Assembly: GCA_022572725.1 (NCBI GenBank)
Contig: JACZVJ010000005.1
Coordinates: 1 to 54,595, forward strand
DNA length: 54,595 nt
Reading direction: 5' to 3'
Source of the DNA: Nitrospinota bacterium
GTDB lineage: Bacteria; Nitrospirota; Nitrospiria; Nitrospirales; UBA8639
The notes beneath the pieces were generated by a model, which worked only from the letters and a program-made list of their open reading frames with translations, did no database searches and was not told the origin of the DNA. Positions within the stretch are counted from its first letter, which is position 1. Each line of letters begins with the position of its first letter. Positions 6,690-18,593 of this stretch are shown here, piece after piece. A program made the translations under genes and the position numbers.

Positions 6690-8555
6690 ATGCGATTGCC
6701 CCTATACCTGAAGATTGGCTGCTTTTTGGGCTTGGTCCTCCTTGGACCGACCGCCGTTGGGGCCTTTGAAGACCCGCCGGCTCTTTCGCAGGTCTCGAAA
6801 GATTTGTATTACCAGACGGAAGGAGTTCCTCAGGGTCCAGCAGCTCCGGACGTTCGATCCGTCTATCCCCGGATCAGTTATGTCGATAATCGGGTCTTGG
6901 TGTGGGTGGTGACCCAGCAGCATACCTACTTTGGTGGTTTTGTGTTGGCCTTACCGCTATTTTGCGTGCTCCTCGAATTTCTTGGGTTGTTCCGGCGAGA
7001 TCACGAGTCCGCCAAACGGTTCGACGGACTCGCTCGTGACCTCCTGCGAGTGGCCCTCATAGCCCTGTCTATCACGGCCATATTGGGCAGCGTAATGCTC
7101 GCGCTATTTATACTTCTGTACCCCGGTTTTATGGGTTATATGGGCGCGACGTTTAGAAGCATGATGCCGCTGTACGCCGGAGTGTTTCTTGGGGAGTCCC
7201 TCTTGCTCATCCTTTACTATTACAGTTGGGACTGGTTGGCCAGCCGGACGCAAAAGTGGGTGCACATGACCATTGGCGTGGTGGCGAATGGCATGGGGAT
7301 TATCCTCTTGCTGCTTGCCAATTCCTGGGCGTCCTTTATGATGGCCCCGTCTGGGGTGGATGCAGAAGGCCGATTTCTCGGCAATATCTGGCATTTGCTG
7401 CACTCCCCCTTATGGAATCCGTTAAACGCCCATCGGTTTTTGGCGGATATCATGTCTGGGGGCGCGGTGGTCGTGGCGTATGCGGCGTACCGGTTTTTGA
7501 GCGCGCGCTCAGAGAAAGAGCGTGCGTATTATGATTGGGTGGGATACGTGTTTATTGTTGTGGTCGTCTGTGCCCTGTTGCCAATGCCCTTTGCCGGCTA
7601 TTGGTTGATGCGTTCCGTGTTTGAGTTTCGCCAGCAGATGGGGATCACGATGATGGGCGGGTTGCTTTCATGGCTCTTTGTCCTTCAGGCCATTACGGTT
7701 GGGGTCTTGTTCCTGGGCATTAACTATTATATTTGGCAGTCCCTGGGCCGGATTCGCGGTGGGGACCGATTTAATCCGTATTTCAAGGCCATTGTGCTTG
7801 CCCTGATGATTTGTTTTCTCGTGTGGTTTACCCCTCATACCGTTGCGATGAGCCCCAGCGAGATGAAGGCCATGGGTGCGGCGCAGCATCCGGTCATTGG
7901 GCAATTTGGGCTCATGTCGGCTAAAAACGGCGCGATCAATGTCATGATCTGCCTTACCGCCATGAGTTTTTTCTTGTATCGAAGAGCGAATCGGGAGTTG
8001 ACGATTTCCTGGGTTCAGGCTGGGAACATTGCTCTCGCAACCTTGTTTTTCATCGGCATGGTTAATGTCGTGTGGCTGGCGATTTATGGATTTTATATTC
8101 CTGCCCATGTTCGGGTGGGGCTTTCGGTGCCTCAAGGGGCGACGACGGCGACCGTGGTCCTCGGCGGCTTGTGGATTAATCACCTGATGCTCAAAGGTTC
8201 TCGGATCAAGGGACCGATCCAGTGGGGAAAGATCTCGGTTCGAGGGATGGTGGCGTTGTTTGGGGTCGCGGCAGCGTTTACGTGGGTCATGGGGTTGATG
8301 GGCTATATTCGATCGGCGGGGAGGTTAGGCTGGCATGTGAATGAGTTGCTCCCAGATCTCTCTCCTTGGGCCTTTACTCCGACCTTGGCCTTTGCCGCCA
8401 AAATGGTCACGGTCAATATGGTCGTGTTTTGGGCTTCCGTGTTTGTGGTGTTTTGGCTGGCCAACCGTGATCGGCGATTCGTTGAAGAAGGGGTTTCGGC
8501 CCAGGCCAACAGAATACCCCTCGTTCAACCATTGCCCAGAGAGGAATCAGCATGA
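6690..8555 (+). CDS. Cytochrome bd-like oxidase large subunit, paralog A
   Basis: A 621-residue polytopic protein with about 14 spans, related to CydA but longer and distinct, of the kind annotated in Nitrospira as a bd-like terminal oxidase. An N-terminal signal/anchor (to about residue 25) is followed by TQQHTYFGGFVLALP, whose His is placed like the N-terminal heme ligand of CydA, then GNIWHLLHSPLWNPLNAHR, PFAGYWLMR, RQQMGITMMGG and PHTVAMSPSEMKAMG. All of these blocks recur in paralog B at 12287. No CydB partner is encoded here. It is flanked by an 8-base gap to the membrane protein gene and a 4-base overlap with the DUF3047 gene. Oxygen reduction is inferred from family; heme and metal content need experiment. 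Confidence 0.85.
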   Translation: MRLPLYLKIGCFLGLVLLGPTAVGAFEDPPALSQVSKDLYYQTEGVPQGPAAPDVRSVYPRISYVDNRVLVWVVTQQHTYFGGFVLALPLFCVLLEFLGLFRRDHESAKRFDGLARDLLRVALIALSITAILGSVMLALFILLYPGFMGYMGATFRSMMPLYAGVFLGESLLLILYYYSWDWLASRTQKWVHMTIGVVANGMGIILLLLANSWASFMMAPSGVDAEGRFLGNIWHLLHSPLWNPLNAHRFLADIMSGGAVVVAYAAYRFLSARSEKERAYYDWVGYVFIVVVVCALLPMPFAGYWLMRSVFEFRQQMGITMMGGLLSWLFVLQAITVGVLFLGINYYIWQSLGRIRGGDRFNPYFKAIVLALMICFLVWFTPHTVAMSPSEMKAMGAAQHPVIGQFGLMSAKNGAINVMICLTAMSFFLYRRANRELTISWVQAGNIALATLFFIGMVNVVWLAIYGFYIPAHVRVGLSVPQGATTATVVLGGLWINHLMLKGSRIKGPIQWGKISVRGMVALFGVAAAFTWVMGLMGYIRSAGRLGWHVNELLPDLSPWAFTPTLAFAAKMVTVNMVVFWASVFVVFWLANRDRRFVEEGVSAQANRIPLVQPLPREESA

Positions 8556-9713: not shown

Positions 9714-10616
9714 ATGGAAAATCGAAGGGTTTTAATCGGGTCAATTGTGTTCGTCTTTGCGTCCTTCATTCTGATGGTAGTCATGCTGGTATATGAAACC
9801 TATAGGGGGAGGCAACAGCGTGAACAGCTGATGGCCTCTATTGAAAGGCCTACAACTCGCCTGATCGAACCTGTAGCTGTCCAAGATTTTTCGATGTACA
9901 GAACGATTGTGGGAAATGAGGGGCGTGAGATGGTTGAGATTCCAGAAGGGCCTTTTACCATGGGGAGTGATGATGGCGATCCTGATGAAGGCCCGGCTCA
10001 CCCGGTGTATCTCCAGGGCTATTATATCGATCTGAATGAGGTAACCCAGGCCGAATACGAGCGGTTTGCCAAAATGACCAAGCGGGAAAGGCCAAGGGTG
10101 CCTGTCTTTGAGGAGGATATTTCCAAATTGATGGATCCGGATTATCCAGTTGTGGGTATCACTTGGAATGATGGTTTTGCCTATTGTCGGTGGGCGGGAA
10201 AGCGGTTGCCCACCGAGGCGGAATGGGAAAAGGCGGCGCGAGGGGAAGGCCGTCGTCGTTATCCCTGGGGAAATGATTTCAATTACCCCTATGCGAATAT
10301 TGATGGGGAGGAAGACGGGTATCCCTATTTGGGGATAACGGGTTCCTCCGAGGCTGGCCGTAGCCCATTCGGGTTGTATGACACCGCTGGGAATGCATCC
10401 GAATGGGTTGCGGATTCATATCACCCCGAGTATTACCAGAATACCCCCTACCGGGACCCGCCTGGCCCTAGCGAATCCGAGTTTAAGGTGATTCGTGGCG
10501 GGTCGTGGCGTGATTCGAAGTTGAGTGCTCGCCTGACGAAACGGTTTTCTGCCAAGATGTGGAGAACGGATTCAACGGTGGGGTTTCGTTGTGCCAAAGG
10601 TGTAAAACCTGATTAA
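9714..10616 (+). CDS. Membrane-anchored FGE/SUMF1-like protein lacking catalytic Cys, copy 1
   Basis: A 300-residue protein with one N-terminal anchor (about 6-26) and a formylglycine-generating-enzyme-sulfatase domain from about residue 75: MVEIPEGPFTMGSDDGDPDE, YYIDLNEVTQAEYERFA, CRWAGKRLPTEAEWEKAARG, FGLYDTAGNASEWVAD and RGGSWRDS...VGFRCAKG. In true FGE a pair of cysteines sits between RGGS and GFRC; here that stretch has none. It is therefore unlikely to make formylglycine and may act as a binding or structural domain, as in SUMF2-like proteins. A GGAGG lies 15 bases upstream of the ATG. The neighbour at 10715 is a related copy. Both lie inside the oxidase cluster, suggesting an envelope assembly or accessory role. 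Confidence 0.85.
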   Translation: MENRRVLIGSIVFVFASFILMVVMLVYETYRGRQQREQLMASIERPTTRLIEPVAVQDFSMYRTIVGNEGREMVEIPEGPFTMGSDDGDPDEGPAHPVYLQGYYIDLNEVTQAEYERFAKMTKRERPRVPVFEEDISKLMDPDYPVVGITWNDGFAYCRWAGKRLPTEAEWEKAARGEGRRRYPWGNDFNYPYANIDGEEDGYPYLGITGSSEAGRSPFGLYDTAGNASEWVADSYHPEYYQNTPYRDPPGPSESEFKVIRGGSWRDSKLSARLTKRFSAKMWRTDSTVGFRCAKGVKPD

Positions 10617-10714: not shown

Positions 10715-11719
10715 ATGGATACCCAATTTAAACTGATCTTTCTTTTTGCGGTTTTGTTTATGACTAGTTTGCCTATTGTCGGAATTCTCAAAGGTACTGA
10801 CCCTCCTCCCTCAGATCCAGGGGGTGTAAAGGTTCGCTCCTCCCAAATGGAAAAAGTCTCCCGGTTGAACGTAACAACGGCGCTCAGTCCAATAAAAGAG
10901 GAAATGGTTTTGATCCCAGGAGGGAACTTTGTTCAGGGGACACATCACGGGGGATATAACGAAGGGCCTGAGCGAACGATAGCCCTTGAGGCCTTCTGGA
11001 TTAACCGTTTTGAAGTGACAAATCATCAGTACTTCGAGTTTGTAAGGGCGACGGGACATCGAAAACCGAGCCCCCCTTCACGATACGCTAAGCGCTTGAC
11101 TCAATTACGTGGACCCAACCAGCCGGTTACCTATGTCTCCTGGTATGACGCCGATGCCTATTGTCGATGGAAAGGGAAACGTCTGCCCACCGAGGCCGAG
11201 TGGGAAAAGGCGATGCGTGGAGCCGATGGCCGGCTGTGGCCATGGGGTAACCAGTCCGATCGCTATGCTGCGAATCTCGGAGAGGCTGAGGATGGGTTTG
11301 AATCGAGTGCACCCGTTGGGTCCTTCCCCCAGGATAAAAGCGTCTTTGGCGTGTATGATGGTTTTGGAAATTTAATGGAATGGGCGGCTGATTGGTATGT
11401 GGAGCAGGCGTATCGGTTGCCGTTGTCTCACACTGCCAAAGTAGCCGATCGAGGCGGCTATAAGACCCTTCGAGGCGCAGGCTATAACAGCAGGGGTATT
11501 GATTTGAGGATTACGAATCGAAGTTTTATGGTGCCGAATTTTCGGGACGAAACGATTGGGTTTCGATGTGCTTCGTCCGATAATTCTGACGCTAGGGAAG
11601 AAGTGGTGTCAGGCCCAATCGCCAGTGGGGACCTAGAGAAAATCGAAGTAGTAGAGAATGAGAAAGACGGCCAAGAGAATATTGACAACCATACCAGCCA
11701 GCACTATAATGTCGAATAA
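10715..11719 (+). CDS. Membrane-anchored FGE/SUMF1-like protein lacking catalytic Cys, copy 2
   Basis: A 334-residue relative of the preceding gene. An N-terminal hydrophobic segment (about 5-23) anchors or exports it. The FGE fold follows from about residue 62: MVLIPGGNFVQGTHHGGYNE, FWINRFEVTNHQYFEFV, CRWKGKRLPTEAEWEKAMRG, FGVYDGFGNLMEWAADW, then LRGAGYNSRG...IGFRCASS. Again the two catalytic cysteines of FGE between RGG/RGA and GFRC are absent. The C-terminal 45 residues are acidic and low in complexity. No clear ribosome site precedes the ATG. Tandem divergent copies suggest a heteromeric pair; the function is unknown. Confidence 0.8.
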   Translation: MDTQFKLIFLFAVLFMTSLPIVGILKGTDPPPSDPGGVKVRSSQMEKVSRLNVTTALSPIKEEMVLIPGGNFVQGTHHGGYNEGPERTIALEAFWINRFEVTNHQYFEFVRATGHRKPSPPSRYAKRLTQLRGPNQPVTYVSWYDADAYCRWKGKRLPTEAEWEKAMRGADGRLWPWGNQSDRYAANLGEAEDGFESSAPVGSFPQDKSVFGVYDGFGNLMEWAADWYVEQAYRLPLSHTAKVADRGGYKTLRGAGYNSRGIDLRITNRSFMVPNFRDETIGFRCASSDNSDAREEVVSGPIASGDLEKIEVVENEKDGQENIDNHTSQHYNVE

Positions 11720-11789
11720 TTTTGCATTTGCACGCATAGGTCTGGGTTCTTTGAAAAAACAAAATATCCGTAACATATCCTAATTGAAG

Positions 11790-11819
11790 TTGTCAAGAGT
11801 GAAATCAATTAGGTGTAAC
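11790..11819 (+). promoter_or_regulatory. Candidate promoter before the two small membrane protein genes
   Basis: TTGTCA at 11790-11795 (five of six matches to the -35 consensus), an 18-base spacer, then TGTAAC at 11814-11819 (four of six). Transcription would start about 20 bases before the 40-residue gene at 11845 and could drive it, the second small gene and oxidase paralog B. Confidence 0.4.
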
Positions 11820-11844
11820 TATCTATGTTATTAGGAGAATCCGG

Positions 11845-11967
11845 ATGGATCAGGTTCAGGACGATGATGTAAAAATAAAAATCGGGAAAGGCATTTTTTA
11901 TTTAACCTGTGCGGCCGCCATTCTGTTTTTTTACTGGTTTGCTGGTATTCAATGCCCCTGTAATTGA
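11845..11967 (+). CDS. Small single-span membrane protein (40 aa)
   Basis: A 40-residue open reading frame preceded by TTAGGAGAATCCGG. The product starts with an acidic then lysine-rich segment (MDQVQDDDVKIKIGK), has one hydrophobic span of about 18 residues (GIFYLTCAAAILFFYWFAG) and ends in IQCPCN with two cysteines. The ribosome site, charge-then-span layout and position before a second such gene and oxidase B argue that it is real. Small single-span subunits such as CydX are known for cytochrome bd oxidases; this is similar in size and context, but I see no sequence identity that proves it. Best described as a candidate small oxidase subunit. Confidence 0.6.
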   Translation: MDQVQDDDVKIKIGKGIFYLTCAAAILFFYWFAGIQCPCN

Positions 11968-12064
11968 CCGCTCTTGCCTCTCAGATATAAATGTTCTGTA
12001 AGGCGTTGCTTAAAATCCGTTTAAACCCTACTGGCGAGAAGTTTAATTTAAGAGAGGGACGACT

Positions 12065-12181
12065 ATGCAGACTGTTGTCTATGTTATAATTTCGCTTGTC
12101 ATCTGTTTGTCCTATTTCACTTTTGTGGATTGGCTTATGATGGATATGCAGGGCTTGGATTACTTCTATATATTCCGGTAG
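12065..12181 (+). CDS. Small single-span membrane protein (38 aa), CydX-like in size
   Basis: A 38-residue open reading frame with a purine-rich ribosome site (AAGAGAGGGACGACT). The product is a hydrophobic span at the extreme N-terminus (VVYVIISLVICLSYFTFV) followed by an aromatic, Met-rich tail ending YFYIFR. The architecture, N-terminal span then a short tail, is that of CydX and similar oxidase peptides. It lies 97 bases downstream of the 40-residue gene and 105 bases before oxidase B. Assignment as an oxidase subunit is an inference from size and location. The 12182-12286 gap holds only the strong ribosome site AAGGAGGTAGGTC of the next gene. Confidence 0.6.
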   Translation: MQTVVYVIISLVICLSYFTFVDWLMMDMQGLDYFYIFR

Positions 12182-12286: not shown

Positions 12287-14224
12287 ATGGGTGGCCTCAT
12301 AGTTAAAACAGCCCGAAAAAAAATTCTGGCAGTCACGGGCCTTTTTGCAATGGGAGCAATGCTTCTTCTCCCCATAGTCGTGGCACTACCGGCTTTGGGA
12401 GCCGAAGAATTTCCTGCGGCGGCAGGTGTCGTTGAGGGGCAGAGTGACGAAGAGAAAATTGAAATGGGACGAGATGTTTATTACAAAATCGAAGGCCCTG
12501 CGATCGGCCGCCCGGCTCCAAAGACAGAGGACACCACTGAATTCTATCCTCGATATAATTTTGAAAGCCGGATTCTTCTGTGGGTCGCCAATCAGCAGCA
12601 CCTCTATTACGGCAGCTTCGTGTTGGCCGTTCCGATTTTCTGCATGTGCATTGAGCTTGCAGGAATGATGACCAAAGATAAAGCGATGGCCAAAAGGTAC
12701 GATCAGTTGGCTTATGACTTTATTAAAATTAGCATAACGGCTTACTCCATAACCGCCATCCTGGGTGGAATTTTAATTTTCACCTTCCTCACGCTCTATC
12801 CCGCCTTCTTTGGGTACCTTTCAAGCGTTTTCCGCCCGGTTATGCATATTTATGCTCTCATGTTCGTGGCGGAAAGTGCCACAATTTATATTTACTACTA
12901 TGGGTGGGACATGATGAAGGAGGGATTGCTGAAATGGCTCCACCTGAGCATGTCCGTTGTTTTGAATGTCATTGGGACGACCCTGATGATGCTCGCCAAT
13001 TCCTGGATTGGGTTCATGATGTCTCCTTCGGGAGTAGACGAAAAGGGCCAGTACTTAGGCAACATTTGGCATGTCATCCATACGGCTCTTTGGAATCCCC
13101 TCAATATCCATAGAATTTTAGGGAACATGGCATTTGGTGGTGGTGTGGTCGCGGCTTATGCAGCCTACCGATTCTTGTCTGCCAAAAATGATGAAGAGCG
13201 CGCCCATTACGACTGGATGGGGTATGTCGCCATGACGCTTGGGGTGGCTTTCCTCATTCCGTTGCCTTTCGCCGGGTATTGGTTGATGAGGGAAGTGTAT
13301 GCGTACCGCCAGCAGATGGGTATTACGTTAATGGGCGGTTTGTTGGCTTGGTTGTTTATCATTCAGGCGACGATGATCGGAATCCTTTTCCTCACGACCA
13401 ACTATTATCTCTGGCAGGCACTAGGAAGGATGACTGGGGCTGAGCGGTTCCAGCGGTACATCAAATACCTGGTGTTCATCTTGGTTGTGGGGCTTTTAGT
13501 CTTTATCACTCCCCACACTATCGTGATGTCCCCGGCCGAGTTGAAGGCGATGGGTGGCCAGCAACACCCAGTCCTGGGAAATTATGGGGTGATGTCCGCC
13601 AAAAACGGTGGAATTAATGCGATTATTATGACGACCATTTTGAGTTTTATTTGGTATCAGCGTGGGAACCGGGTGCCAACTGTCTCGTGGACCAGGTTTG
13701 GGAACACGTTTATGATCGTGTTCTTCGTCGTGGCGGGAATAAATAATATTTGGCTCGCGACATATGGTTATTTCATCCCAGCAAACGTCCGTATTGGGCT
13801 TTCCGTTGCCCAGGTGGTGGGGACCTTGTCTTGCCTGTTTATAATGGTCCCCTTTAACTTGGTCATGTTGAAAGGGGCGAGACAATTAGGGCCAATTCGG
13901 TGGGGGAAAATTCCTGTTCGCTCCCAATATGCTCTCATCATGCTGGCAACGGCCTTTACCTGGATGATGGGGTTGATGGGGTATATTCGGTCATCGGTGC
14001 GATTGTACTGGCATGTCAATGAGATCATGCGGGATAACTCTCCCTGGGCATACACCCATACCATCGGGTTTGCAGCCAACGTGATTTCCTTTAACGTGCT
14101 CTTTTTCTGGTTTACCATTTTATTTGTGTTCTGGCTGGGGACCCTTGGGGTGAAGAAGGCCCCCGTGCCAGCGGCCGAACCTGTTCCTGCCACTCCAGTT
14201 CCACAGCCGGCAACAGGACATTGA
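12287..14224 (+). CDS. Cytochrome bd-like oxidase large subunit, paralog B
   Basis: A 645-residue polytopic protein with about 14 spans, paralogous to the gene at 6690. A strong ribosome site (AAGGAGGTAGGTC) fixes the start; residues 1-38 are a signal-like span. Conserved blocks are NQQHLYYGSFVLAVP (H105), GNIWHVIHTALWNPLNIHR, PFAGYWLMREV, RQQMGITLMGG and PHTIVMSPAELKAMGGQQHP, rich in His and suitable for heme or metal ligands. The C-terminus is a Pro/Ala-rich tail. It is followed by two membrane-anchored cytochromes c and a dihaem fusion protein, so electrons probably arrive from cytochrome c rather than directly from quinol, unlike classical bd oxidase. Catalysis of oxygen reduction is inferred from Nitrospira relatives, not shown. 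Confidence 0.85.
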   Translation: MGGLIVKTARKKILAVTGLFAMGAMLLLPIVVALPALGAEEFPAAAGVVEGQSDEEKIEMGRDVYYKIEGPAIGRPAPKTEDTTEFYPRYNFESRILLWVANQQHLYYGSFVLAVPIFCMCIELAGMMTKDKAMAKRYDQLAYDFIKISITAYSITAILGGILIFTFLTLYPAFFGYLSSVFRPVMHIYALMFVAESATIYIYYYGWDMMKEGLLKWLHLSMSVVLNVIGTTLMMLANSWIGFMMSPSGVDEKGQYLGNIWHVIHTALWNPLNIHRILGNMAFGGGVVAAYAAYRFLSAKNDEERAHYDWMGYVAMTLGVAFLIPLPFAGYWLMREVYAYRQQMGITLMGGLLAWLFIIQATMIGILFLTTNYYLWQALGRMTGAERFQRYIKYLVFILVVGLLVFITPHTIVMSPAELKAMGGQQHPVLGNYGVMSAKNGGINAIIMTTILSFIWYQRGNRVPTVSWTRFGNTFMIVFFVVAGINNIWLATYGYFIPANVRIGLSVAQVVGTLSCLFIMVPFNLVMLKGARQLGPIRWGKIPVRSQYALIMLATAFTWMMGLMGYIRSSVRLYWHVNEIMRDNSPWAYTHTIGFAANVISFNVLFFWFTILFVFWLGTLGVKKAPVPAAEPVPATPVPQPATGH

Positions 14225-14315: not shown

Positions 14316-15641
14316 GTGCTGGAGTTAATGGGTGGAGCGTTAGGTATTGGCTGGCCGATTTTTGTGTCCCTGATTGGGTTGCTCATTTATTTTCAGGTGT
14401 CCATTCCTGATGCGGCAAAGAAAAAGCGGTTATCGTTTAAAACTCTGATTGGAATGCTTGCGGCCTTTATGGCCTTCATGGCGATTTCCAACTACGGAAC
14501 GAATTTTGACACGGGCACAAAGGGTTTTGTCGGCGATTCGGGTCTGTTGCCTGTTTCATTGGTCATGGGCACCATTCTGGCCTATATGATGGGACTCTAT
14601 TTCACGAGTCTCACAGCTCTCTTTAAAATCGCCTCGTCGATGTTTCTTGTCGCCGCGATTTTATCGGGATATGGCAATTGGCTTCCCCAAGTGGAGGGAG
14701 GCTTCCCCCCACCTGAGGTCAAGCTCGATTTCCAGAGCATGACTCCTCAACAGCTTGGGGATGAGGGAGAAAAAATAATTTTCGGGGGCCTTGGGCAAAG
14801 CAGGGTCCAGGGGGCTATTGGCAAGGGCCAGTGCCCACTATGCCATGGATTCCAACAAGGGTTTTTGAGCGAACGGGCCCCTAATTTATTTAATATTCCT
14901 GCTCGAGCTTTAACACAACTTGACCATGAAAAATACTATAGGGGGAATCCTGAGGCACGCGACACCGTCCAAAAAGAGGCGTTTCCTGGATCTGGAACGG
15001 CGGAGACGGCGCAAGAATATATCGCTGAATCTCACGCTTGCCCAAGCTGCTTTGTGGTCCCGGAGTTCGGGGTGCAGGGGACGAATGACACGGAGAGTCC
15101 AATGCCGAAAATTCACAAGCCCCCTATTTCCCTGACCTTGGGAGAATTGGCTGCCGTTGATACCTGGATGTATGTGAGGGAAGGTGCAGAAGCCCCTACC
15201 TATGAAGAAATTATTGCGTCCTATGAGAAATTTATTCCTGAGGGGGACCGCCCGCAAGCGTCGAGTGAGGAAGGGCCGGCCGGGGGCGTCATTGCCACTG
15301 GGGAAGAGCCCATCACTGACCTCTTTATGAAGGCAGGGTGTCCCGCTTGCCATACCATTCCCGGGATTGAGGGTGCCACAGGGAAGGTGGGGCCAATGTT
15401 GGTGGAGGGGACAAGTGCCCCCATGCGTTTAAAGGATCCAAGCTACCAGGGAAAGGCCAAATCAGTTCGGGAATATGTAACGGAATCGATCCTAGATCCA
15501 AGCGCTTTTGTGGTAAAGCCTTTTCCAGATAATCAAATGCCCAAGGACTTTGGACTAAAGCTGAGTGCCGGTGCTGTGAATAAAATTGTAGATTATCTGT
15601 CCCAATTAAAAGAGGGACAGCCTCCACCACAAGTCGATTAA
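14316..15641 (+). CDS. Membrane-anchored dihaem cytochrome c
   Basis: A 441-residue protein starting at GTG (after AGGGAGGGGAG). The first 120 residues contain about four membrane spans; two class I cytochrome c domains follow. Haem sites are CPLCH (173-177) with a likely Met ligand in SPMPKIH, and CPACH (342-346) with NQMPKDF. A third Cys pair, CPSCF (242-245), is not a haem site: it falls where the second domain reads DPSAFVV, in the loop after the YxxES helix, so it is an added Cys pair in domain 1. The gene follows oxidase B by 91 bases. It is probably the immediate electron donor or an integral subunit of the oxidase, with haem domains in the periplasm. Confidence 0.85.
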   Translation: MLELMGGALGIGWPIFVSLIGLLIYFQVSIPDAAKKKRLSFKTLIGMLAAFMAFMAISNYGTNFDTGTKGFVGDSGLLPVSLVMGTILAYMMGLYFTSLTALFKIASSMFLVAAILSGYGNWLPQVEGGFPPPEVKLDFQSMTPQQLGDEGEKIIFGGLGQSRVQGAIGKGQCPLCHGFQQGFLSERAPNLFNIPARALTQLDHEKYYRGNPEARDTVQKEAFPGSGTAETAQEYIAESHACPSCFVVPEFGVQGTNDTESPMPKIHKPPISLTLGELAAVDTWMYVREGAEAPTYEEIIASYEKFIPEGDRPQASSEEGPAGGVIATGEEPITDLFMKAGCPACHTIPGIEGATGKVGPMLVEGTSAPMRLKDPSYQGKAKSVREYVTESILDPSAFVVKPFPDNQMPKDFGLKLSAGAVNKIVDYLSQLKEGQPPPQVD

Positions 15642-15709: not shown

Positions 15710-16675
15710 ATGACCTGGTTAAAATTAGTAGAAGGCTACATGCCGGGGCAGATGATCGGTGAGTTGGCGCTGAGTATTTTGTTGTTTGCATTGCTCAATT
15801 GGTCGTTGAAGCGGGCCGGGATGGGGATCCCAAAATTCTGGGCGGGAATCGGGGTCTGGGTGTTTATTTGGTTGTATATAACATACCGCATTTATCCCCC
15901 CATTCCGTTTAGTGTCCGAGCCATATACGGCACGGTGACGATGTGTGGGATCTTCATGTGGGTATCGGGGTCGGAGGCGGATTGGCAGGAGTTTAAAAAG
16001 CCGATTTTCAATGTCATGGATGGGATTACGCCCAGGCACAGATTCCTTCGGACCGTGGCCTTGATTCTGATTCCCTTGGGGATTGGGGGGTTCGCATACC
16101 AATCTTACCTGCCCAGTTTTGATGAGCCGATCGAGCTGCGGACAGTGCATCCGGCGCCTCCTGCGACGACCAAGCTCCATGGGAAGACTTTTGTCCTGCA
16201 GATCGCAGAGAATCCCTTCAGGGTGGGTAGCGAGGGGAAATACGACCAGGAATACACCAATGAACGGAGTGTGGTGCAGGCGATGGGGCGGTTGGTAAAG
16301 GATGTGAATGATCCCAACTACAATCCCTGGGACCCGAATGCGGAAGGGTATATGAAATATGTGCGGGAAGGTGGAGAGGTGTTTTTTCAGAACTGCCATT
16401 TCTGCCATGGGGATAACCTGAATGGGCGGGGGTTGTGGGCCTACGCGTTCAACCCGATTCCGGCGAACTTCACCGATGCGGGAACGATAGCCCAATTACA
16501 AGAAACCTTTGTGTTCTGGCGGGTGGCGAAGGGCGGGCCTGGCCTCCCGGGCGAAGCATTCCCCTGGGCATCTGTCATGCCGCCCTGGGAGCAGCACTTG
16601 ACCACGGATGAAATATGGAAAGTCGTGATGTTTGAGTACTGGCACACGGGGTACTATCCCCGCACGTGGGATTAA
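15710..16675 (+). CDS. Membrane-anchored monohaem cytochrome c
   Basis: A 321-residue protein with about four N-terminal spans (residues 12-130) and one periplasmic cytochrome c domain carrying CHFCH near residues 229-233 followed by GDNLNGRGLW; the Met ligand is probably in WASVMPPWE. The start has an AGGAG ten bases upstream. It sits 68 bases after the dihaem cytochrome and 64 before the dihaem-NxrC fusion. It may relay electrons within the composite oxidase. The fold resembles anchored subunits such as CcoP but the sequence is not close enough to name. Confidence 0.8.
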   Translation: MTWLKLVEGYMPGQMIGELALSILLFALLNWSLKRAGMGIPKFWAGIGVWVFIWLYITYRIYPPIPFSVRAIYGTVTMCGIFMWVSGSEADWQEFKKPIFNVMDGITPRHRFLRTVALILIPLGIGGFAYQSYLPSFDEPIELRTVHPAPPATTKLHGKTFVLQIAENPFRVGSEGKYDQEYTNERSVVQAMGRLVKDVNDPNYNPWDPNAEGYMKYVREGGEVFFQNCHFCHGDNLNGRGLWAYAFNPIPANFTDAGTIAQLQETFVFWRVAKGGPGLPGEAFPWASVMPPWEQHLTTDEIWKVVMFEYWHTGYYPRTWD

Positions 16676-16739: not shown

Positions 16740-18593
16740 ATGAACATTCCAACGAGAACGAACAAGTCGCTACGGACCGGCCTGGGGCTAGCGGTGGGTC
16801 TCAGTCTCTTGCTGTGGGGTGGGCTGCCGCTCACTGGATTGGCGCAAGAAGACGAAGACATTCCGGAAGGGTTTAAAGCTGAAGACAGACCTGCTCCCCC
16901 TTCGGCCGAGCAGATTGAAGCGGGCAAGCGTGTGTATTTCACCAAATGCGTCTGGTGTCATGGGGTGAAGGGCTCGGGGGATGGTCCTGCGGCGGATCGG
17001 TTGTGGCCGCGGCCGAGGAATTTCAACCAAGGCACATTTAAGATTCGGCATACGGTGAGTGGGGAACTTCCTCTGTTGGAGGAGGACCTGCTCCAGACGG
17101 TGACGCATGGGCTCCCGGGCTCGGCCATGCCTTCGTGGGAAGGTATTCTCACGGAGGAGCAGCGGCGCGACGTCCTGTCCTTTGTGACCACGCAATTGGT
17201 CGAGGATCGGGACTGGCAAGATGAAGAATTTGAGACTTTCACTGTGCTGCAATTGGACCAGCTTACGCCCATTGAACCGACCGCTGAGTCCATCAAGCGG
17301 GGGTCGGAGCTCGTGGTGTCGCTGAAATGTATTGAGTGTCACGGACTAGAAGGGCGGGGAGATGGCAATGCCTTCAACCTCAAGGATGACTGGGGCTTCT
17401 CGATACAGCCGGCGGACTGGCACAAGTGCTGGAATTTCCGTGGAACCCGGCAAGATGCGTACAATGTGAAGAACATCTTCCGAACGTTTTCGACTGGGAT
17501 CAATGGGACCCCCATGCCCTCGTTCGCGGACAACACCACGATTGAGCAGCGGTGGGATATTGCGAACTATGTCGGTTCCCTGTGTGAGCGAACGATGGAT
17601 ATTGACATTGCCGGAGGCGAAGTCACCGACGAGATTGCCCAAACGTTAGCCCAAGGCGAGCCCTTCCCCATTGACCCGCTGACGGACAAACCGAAGAGCA
17701 GTTTCGTGGTGCCCTCGATTCCCGTCAGGGAACTTGGGGAATCCTTGGAATTGCCCGTGGACGAATATGATGAGCGTTGGGCCCAAGTGCCTAGGCGGTG
17801 GATTGGCATGGGGGGCCAGATCACGCACAAGCCCCGGAATTTTGTCAACCGGATTGATGACCTGTGGGTACGGTCGGTGTACAACGACACGCATATTGCG
17901 TTTCTGTTCCAGTGGAACGACCGGACCAAGAGCGTTCAGGAAGACGAGGTGGATTGGGACCCGACGGAGGTGAACCTGGCGGACTATGGGGTGGAAGAGA
18001 CGCTGCCAGGGGGCTCGCAGTTTGCTGATGATCCCGGGCACCCGGGCTCCATTGCCTGGAATCAGAATAAATATGCGGTGTACAACGACGGGGTGGCATT
18101 CGAGTTTCCGATTAAATGGCAGGAGTTGCCCGCGCCACGAAAGCCGCGGTATTTCTGGGGGGATGAGTCATTTCCCATGGAAATCACCAAATGGACGGCG
18201 GACGGGACCCTGGCGGTGTATGAAGGGACGGGATGGGATCAAGACTTCACCGAGCTGGATGATTTCGCCGAGGAAGTTGAAGTGAAGAAGGCACAGTGGA
18301 AGAATGGGCGATGGACTGTGCTTGTTCATCGGCCGCTGAAGGGGGATTACGAGGAAGTGGCCAGCCTCGAGCCAGGCCAGTACATCCCAATGGTGTTTTT
18401 TGCGTGGGATGGCCACAATGGAGATGTGGGGCGGAAAATGGCAGTGTCCGCATTCTATTACCTGGTGTTGAAGCCGGCAATGCCCGTGGAGGCCTTCATT
18501 TATCCGATCCTAATGGGCGTGGGTATTGTGTTCGTGGAAGGGTGGATCGTGATCCGGCGGGCTAATCGCCGCAAGGGGAAGATCTTTACGTAA
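16740..18593 (+). CDS. Dihaem cytochrome c fused to an ethylbenzene-dehydrogenase-gamma/NxrC-like domain
   Basis: A 617-residue exported protein: signal peptide (about 1-35), two cytochrome c domains with CVWCH (70-74) and CIECH (197-201), then a beta-sandwich (about 325-575) like the gamma subunit of ethylbenzene dehydrogenase and NxrC, and a C-terminal span (about 580-602) with a basic tail that fixes it to the membrane. In the gamma family heme b is bound by Met and Lys. By eye, the Lys region VVMKRPL of the other copies reads VLVHRPLKG here (H530) and the Met region FxCMGQ reads YFWGDES (W473, with M480 nearby), so the b-heme ligands are changed or heme b may be absent. It ends the oxidase operon just before a terminator. 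It may dock a soluble donor. Confidence 0.85.
   Translation: MNIPTRTNKSLRTGLGLAVGLSLLLWGGLPLTGLAQEDEDIPEGFKAEDRPAPPSAEQIEAGKRVYFTKCVWCHGVKGSGDGPAADRLWPRPRNFNQGTFKIRHTVSGELPLLEEDLLQTVTHGLPGSAMPSWEGILTEEQRRDVLSFVTTQLVEDRDWQDEEFETFTVLQLDQLTPIEPTAESIKRGSELVVSLKCIECHGLEGRGDGNAFNLKDDWGFSIQPADWHKCWNFRGTRQDAYNVKNIFRTFSTGINGTPMPSFADNTTIEQRWDIANYVGSLCERTMDIDIAGGEVTDEIAQTLAQGEPFPIDPLTDKPKSSFVVPSIPVRELGESLELPVDEYDERWAQVPRRWIGMGGQITHKPRNFVNRIDDLWVRSVYNDTHIAFLFQWNDRTKSVQEDEVDWDPTEVNLADYGVEETLPGGSQFADDPGHPGSIAWNQNKYAVYNDGVAFEFPIKWQELPAPRKPRYFWGDESFPMEITKWTADGTLAVYEGTGWDQDFTELDDFAEEVEVKKAQWKNGRWTVLVHRPLKGDYEEVASLEPGQYIPMVFFAWDGHNGDVGRKMAVSAFYYLVLKPAMPVEAFIYPILMGVGIVFVEGWIVIRRANRRKGKIFT

Follow-up and report, generated by a model that had tools for sequence, protein, structure and literature searches.

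Three small membrane proteins encoded with the OR-N2 oxidase are candidate accessory subunits of the terminal oxidase complex of Nitrospirota

Three short genes, p1, p2, and pm, each encoding a small membrane protein, accompany the gene of the OR-N2-type bd-like oxidase in Nitrospirota, and all three are real genes under purifying selection. Their conservation and gene context indicate that the proteins are probably accessory subunits, each crossing the membrane once, of the OR-N2 terminal oxidase complex. The genes were characterized in the window, the 54,595-nucleotide stretch of DNA analyzed here, and in its relatives. A preliminary description of the window had reported frames of 40 and 38 codons, with good ribosome sites and a single hydrophobic span each, directly before the second bd-like oxidase gene. 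Both frames are present there, preceded by Shine-Dalgarno-like sites and encoding one hydrophobic span apiece. These two genes, p1 and p2, are real, but the set comprises three, pm having been overlooked. The features are as follows, with + denoting the oxidase strand.

6690–8555, +: oxidase A, OR-N1-type paralog lacking its own p1/p2 set; proposed partner of OR-N2
11633–11737, −: pm, 34 aa; third small membrane protein, conserved in relatives with low dN/dS
11682–11710, +: putative sigma-70 consensus promoter TTGACA-17-TATAAT for p1-p2-oxidase, antisense inside pm
11767–11796, −: promoter-like site for pm; −35 TTGACA (11796 to 11791) and TG-containing −10 region
11833–11837, +: Shine-Dalgarno-like AGGAG of p1 in the window sequence; similar purine-rich sites in relatives
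11845–11967, +: p1, 40 aa; ATG at 11845, stop at 11967; one-span membrane protein
12054–12058, +: Shine-Dalgarno-like GAGGG of p2 in the window sequence; GGAGG-like sites in relatives
12065–12181, +: p2, 38 aa; ATG at 12065, stop at 12181; one-span membrane protein
12287–14224, +: oxidase B, bd-like subunit assigned to the OR-N2 / NIDE0901 type; Pfam Cyt_bd_oxida_I, CydA-like predicted fold
14316–15641, +: membrane-bound cytochrome c-like protein of the same cluster; conserved gene order
15710–16675, +: membrane-bound cytochrome c of the same cluster; conserved gene order
16740–18593, +: NxrC-like protein (alt_NxrC type) with cytochrome c domains; Pfam Cytochrom_C and EB_dh, TIGR03477; conserved gene order

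The translations are MDQVQDDDVKIKIGKGIFYLTCAAAILFFYWFAGIQCPCN for p1 (40 aa), MQTVVYVIISLVICLSYFTFVDWLMMDMQGLDYFYIFR for p2 (38 aa), and MRANAKLFDIIVLAGMVVNILLAVFLILYYFDFL for pm (34 aa). All three proteins would insert into the membrane, and their conserved residues extend through the membrane span itself. Positive charges precede the span in 42 of 43 p1 sequences and in all 44 pm sequences, predicting that the N-terminus of each lies inside. In p2, the charges mostly follow the span (32/42 sequences). The C-terminal end of p1 is CPC in most Nitrospirales and is replaced elsewhere by His-bearing tails; Cys or His occurs within the last 8 residues in 41 of 43 distinct members and is missing from two. 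From the predicted topology, the CPC motif would be periplasmic. The C-terminal half of p2 carries the conserved motif LMDxQGLDYFYxFR, the first part of which is LM(D)xQGL.

To evaluate conservation within the order, each of 60 relatives was searched for its best match to oxidase B, and the DNA upstream of that match was compared; 56 of these matches were OR-N2 loci. A second, partly overlapping set comprised 80 OR-N2 loci of named genomes, including that of N. moscoviensis NSP M-1 (L134). In the first set, p1 was present at 53 of the 56 OR-N2 loci, p2 at 55, and pm at 53, the loci without p1 or p2 being contig ends (L019, L021, and L026). Among the named genomes, the corresponding counts were 75, 77, and 73 of 80, with p1 or p2 absent at contig ends and at one stand-alone paralog (L149). 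Both genes were always upstream of the oxidase and on its strand, in the same order at every intact OR-N2 locus. Only four Nitrospirales genomes in the sample lacked both: two (G005 and G222) had no OR-N2 match in the assembly, and in the other two (G137 and G288) the start of OR-N2 was missing at an apparent contig end. As a missing or truncated OR-N2 accounts for all four, co-occurrence within the order is essentially complete.

Selection was evident at the codon level. In close pairs, dN/dS was approximately 0.07 for p1, 0.12 for p2, and 0.06 for pm, making pm the most conserved of the three. In p1 and p2, third codon positions were by far the most variable and no stop codon interrupted either frame, disruption of which had been named as grounds for refutation. 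For pm read in its own frame, diversity at the three codon positions was 0.10, 0.01, and 0.32. As a control, five other small frames of the interval had no match in any relative; the remaining control frames with matches coincide in part with pm or p2 but are read in a different frame or from the opposite strand. The only attraction of regarding p1, p2, and pm as chance open frames is their short length, and this reading has a negligible probability: it is rejected by the dN/dS values, the whole-length conservation, the control frames, and the occurrence of the genes in well over 100 genomes under purifying selection.

Two tandem genes with FGE-sulfatase domains (formylglycine-generating-enzyme-like, PF03781) lie between oxidases A and B, at 9714–10616 and 10715–11719, and FGE-like genes stay beside the oxidase cluster in many relatives. 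In the window, the 3′ end of the second of these genes overprints pm in antisense and in the same codon phase. The overlap is confined to the window genome, the corresponding frame being closed or unrelated in relatives. The FGE-like 3′ tail was considered as the source of the pm signal and was rejected because the tail is not conserved in relatives.

The preliminary description had also placed a plausible promoter ahead of p1 and p2. This promoter is probably the perfect (12/12) sigma-70 consensus at 11682–11710, but it lies beyond the interval then described, inside pm. It is the only exact TTGACA-N15-19-TATAAT in the window, where 0.04 would be expected, and the 3.17-Mb assembly contains five exact consensus sites with a spacing of 16–18. 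Both hexamers were exact in 98 of 101 distinct pm sequences from Nitrospirales. Moreover, pm codons whose third base falls inside a hexamer are fixed, while most other pm codons vary at third positions. Specifically, ATA occurred in 98 of 98 sequences and GTT in 99 of 100, although ATA makes up 4% of the Ile codons and GTT 18% of the Val codons in the oxidase genes; GTC (100/101) and ATT (99/99) were similarly invariant. The promoter hexamers inside pm are under selection, synonymous sites included. In f4 (L062 and L063) and outside the order, the pm protein is retained without the hexamers. Thus, protein and promoter are separate, superimposed constraints.

If this promoter is used, transcription of the oxidase operon would start near 11717. 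A second TTGACA, facing the first and followed by a TG-containing −10 region, was found between pm and p1 in 99 of 104 distinct sequences. It lies mostly 68–86 nt from the pm core, and its −10 region is weak in the window itself. Were both promoters used, they would face each other, the pm transcript would begin near 11760, and the transcripts would overlap by some 40 bases.

The large subunit encoded downstream was characterized using sequence and structure comparisons. Oxidase B matched PF01654, the CydA-type N-terminal domain, with an E-value of 4.3e-18. Its AlphaFold model, of moderate confidence (mean pLDDT 77.6), has approximately 14 helices after the N-terminal one, and the only significant Foldseek matches to this model were CydA chains of solved bd oxidases (best E-value 4.8e-8). 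Based on 78% identity to the N. moscoviensis protein (L134), the gene context, and the literature description, 12287–14224 most likely encodes an oxidase of the OR-N2 / NIDE0901 type, a class named in PMC12342949. OR-N1 and OR-N2 have been proposed to form a CydAA′ terminal oxidase (PMC12342949, PMC10839748), and strong transcription of the corresponding genomic region has been reported for N. moscoviensis (PMC6606698).

The small genes extend well beyond the order. Using an E-value threshold of 0.001, the p1 and p2 profiles matched 105 and 101 of 296 Nitrospirota genomes, respectively; at a threshold of 0.01, the pm profile matched 121, the weakest few of which are probably chance matches. 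In almost all genomes, each family occurs as a single copy near OR-N2; contig breaks and assemblies lacking OR-N2 account for the exceptions. The class's other orders retain the arrangement p1-p2-oxidase-cytochrome c-cytochrome c-NxrC-like, and pm is divergent there. In other classes (L178, L180, L182, and L184), the genes form a single-strand run, pm-p1-p2-oxidase-(cytochrome c-cytochrome c-NxrC-like), the contig of L182 ending after the first cytochrome c. In L185, pm instead follows the NxrC-like gene and closes the run; it likewise follows the NxrC-like gene in L179, where p1 and p2 are cut off at a contig end. Accordingly, both peptides are conserved at the same place not only across the order but also in additional orders of the class and additional classes of the phylum, which was the check named when the frames were first described.

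Some copies of these genes are found apart from the cluster. Orphan second copies of p1 (..WFFYWLNGIQCPC) occur in L202 (5677–5925), L203 (3954–4148), L204 (6138–6338), and L205 (5954–6256); they have longer N-termini and no adjoining oxidase gene. The window's own genome contained no second copies of the small genes beyond one weak match.

The distribution of the small genes among oxidase paralogs is more restricted. Neither p1, p2, pm, nor any obvious substitute was found next to OR-N1 genes or stand-alone second OR-N2 copies, and bd-like_3-type loci likewise had none of these. The same was true of the f18 (L187 and L188) and f28 (L189 and L190) clusters, in which no p1, p2, or pm was detected and which combine the same cytochromes and NxrC-like gene with a more distant oxidase. 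The stand-alone OR-N2 copies (L195, 6296–8224; L196, 8820–10796; L200, 7055–8857; and L149) have no cytochrome genes; the identity of such second copies is 77%. Downstream of those in L195 and L196 is a conserved small one-span frame starting with MKESEMM(D/E)FWVANPLIEMIFG.

In an oxidase tree of 80 sequences, built by a quick method with SH-aLRT support only, the label "has p1 and p2" required three changes. These are compatible with a single gain at the root of the OR-N1/OR-N2 clade (branch 97) plus two losses, one within OR-N1 (branch 89) and the other among the stand-alone copies (branch 97). This pattern is consistent with the published idea that OR-N1 and OR-N2 form one complex, which would need one set of small subunits.

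Taken with this tracking of OR-N2, the phylum-wide conservation supports the earlier proposal that p1 and p2 are small structural subunits of the oxidase, a role that probably extends to pm. All three proteins have a single span and fewer than 50 residues, are conserved, and are genetically linked to one oxidase type, as is typical of such subunits. In favor of the same reading, oxidase B is predicted to fold like CydA, and solved structures show CydX and CydH bound to that subunit (PMC8951039). In the proposed arrangement, p1 and p2 would be made from the oxidase mRNA, started at the consensus promoter inside pm on the opposite strand; pm would be expressed from that opposite strand in Nitrospiria and, in other classes, as part of the operon. 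The small helices would pack against the large membrane subunit and stabilize it, like CydX/CydS and CydH; shielding of heme or oxygen-access sites is a further possible role. Several considerations weigh against subunits. First, the linkage would also fit assembly factors or subunits of the cytochrome c / NxrC-like module. Second, as stand-alone OR-N2 copies lack the small genes, not every OR-N2 protein needs them in cis. Finally, orphan p1 copies exist away from any oxidase, and pm is on the other strand in the window genome.

The small proteins might instead serve the oxidase cluster as assembly factors or chaperones, acting in heme or copper insertion or in cytochrome c docking and absent from the finished enzyme. 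Such factors would account for strict linkage without fixed stoichiometry, the C-terminal Cys/His of p1 would suit metal handling, and the nearby FGE-like genes hint at maturation functions. However, soluble domains are usual in the known assembly factors of oxidases, and p1, p2, and pm consist of little beyond one span. Conservation through that span is, moreover, what would be expected of a helix packed in a complex. We therefore consider assembly factors unlikely. Somewhat more doubtful is that the proteins belong to the electron-donor module (the two membrane cytochromes c and the NxrC-like protein), or to a complex III/IV supercomplex, and do not bind the oxidase. The cluster is kept together as a whole, and published work suggests a supercomplex in N. 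moscoviensis (PMC6606698). Nevertheless, p1 and p2 are directly before the oxidase gene and not among the cytochrome genes, and the f18/f28 clusters keep the cytochromes and the NxrC-like gene, with the more distant oxidase, in the absence of detectable small genes. Finally, regulatory leader peptides of the oxidase operon, which the position of small frames between promoter and main gene might suggest, are highly improbable given that the amino acid sequences are conserved over their whole length with low dN/dS, that there are two or three frames, that in certain lineages pm is encoded on the opposite strand or follows the operon, and that no terminator-like structure was detected in the interval.

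A more elaborate version of the accessory-subunit reading is also conceivable, if a long shot: the periplasmic Cys/His end of p1 would ligate metal or heme at the cytochrome c docking surface, and oxidase expression would be set by the convergent promoters overlapping inside pm. If so, a 40-residue subunit would give OR-N oxidases an additional redox or metal site.

Just as classical bd oxidases suffer from the loss of CydX, OR-N oxidases expressed or purified without p1, p2, and pm could fail for lack of them. Most nitrite-oxidizing and comammox Nitrospira are believed to rely mainly on OR-N oxidases for oxygen reduction; according to PMC10839748, the exact subunit composition of these enzymes is not known and is without experimental confirmation. 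With p1, p2, and pm as defined candidates that are ancient and lineage-wide, this question can be put directly to the test. It is also unusual for a promoter to be conserved base for base within a gene for a putative partner subunit; such an arrangement would escape annotation and could disturb codon-based analyses.

Compared with known small oxidase subunits, p1, p2, and pm share more in kind than in sequence. No match to p1, p2, pm, or their divergent members was found in Pfam or NCBIfam, and PDB profile searches with the three returned no bd-oxidase chain up to an E-value of 10. Homology to CydX was rejected on the basis of these family-model and PDB profile searches, which were negative for CydH and CydS as well; a sequence-level relationship with CydX is thus unsupported. 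Like CydX, CydS, and AppX (PMC8951039), the proteins have approximately 30–40 residues and one span, are linked to a CydA-type oxidase gene, and, by analogy, may have a stabilizing role. Unlike these, whose genes follow cydB, p1 and p2 are upstream of the oxidase, and there are three proteins rather than one. Indeed, the cluster in the window consists of the OR-N2 subunit, the cytochromes c, and the NxrC-like gene, with no cydB-type gene among them. CydH / CydY (YnhF) of E. coli bd-I is likewise a tiny single-helix subunit that binds CydA (PMC8951039). It is encoded by an orphan gene, comparable with the orphan p1 copies; it differs in that no sequence similarity was detected and that p1, p2, and pm are linked to oxidase genes. 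Our search of the open literature found no paper on small OR-N subunits and no OR-N structure. The cytochrome c-oxidizing CydAA′ oxygen reductase OR-N of Nitrospirota and Nitrospinota (PMC12342949, PMC10839748) and TO_1 of Ca. Manganitrophus (PMC9040806) have the same type of large subunit in a known gene cluster. Their descriptions in the open literature name no small subunits, and to these p1, p2, and pm add three candidates.
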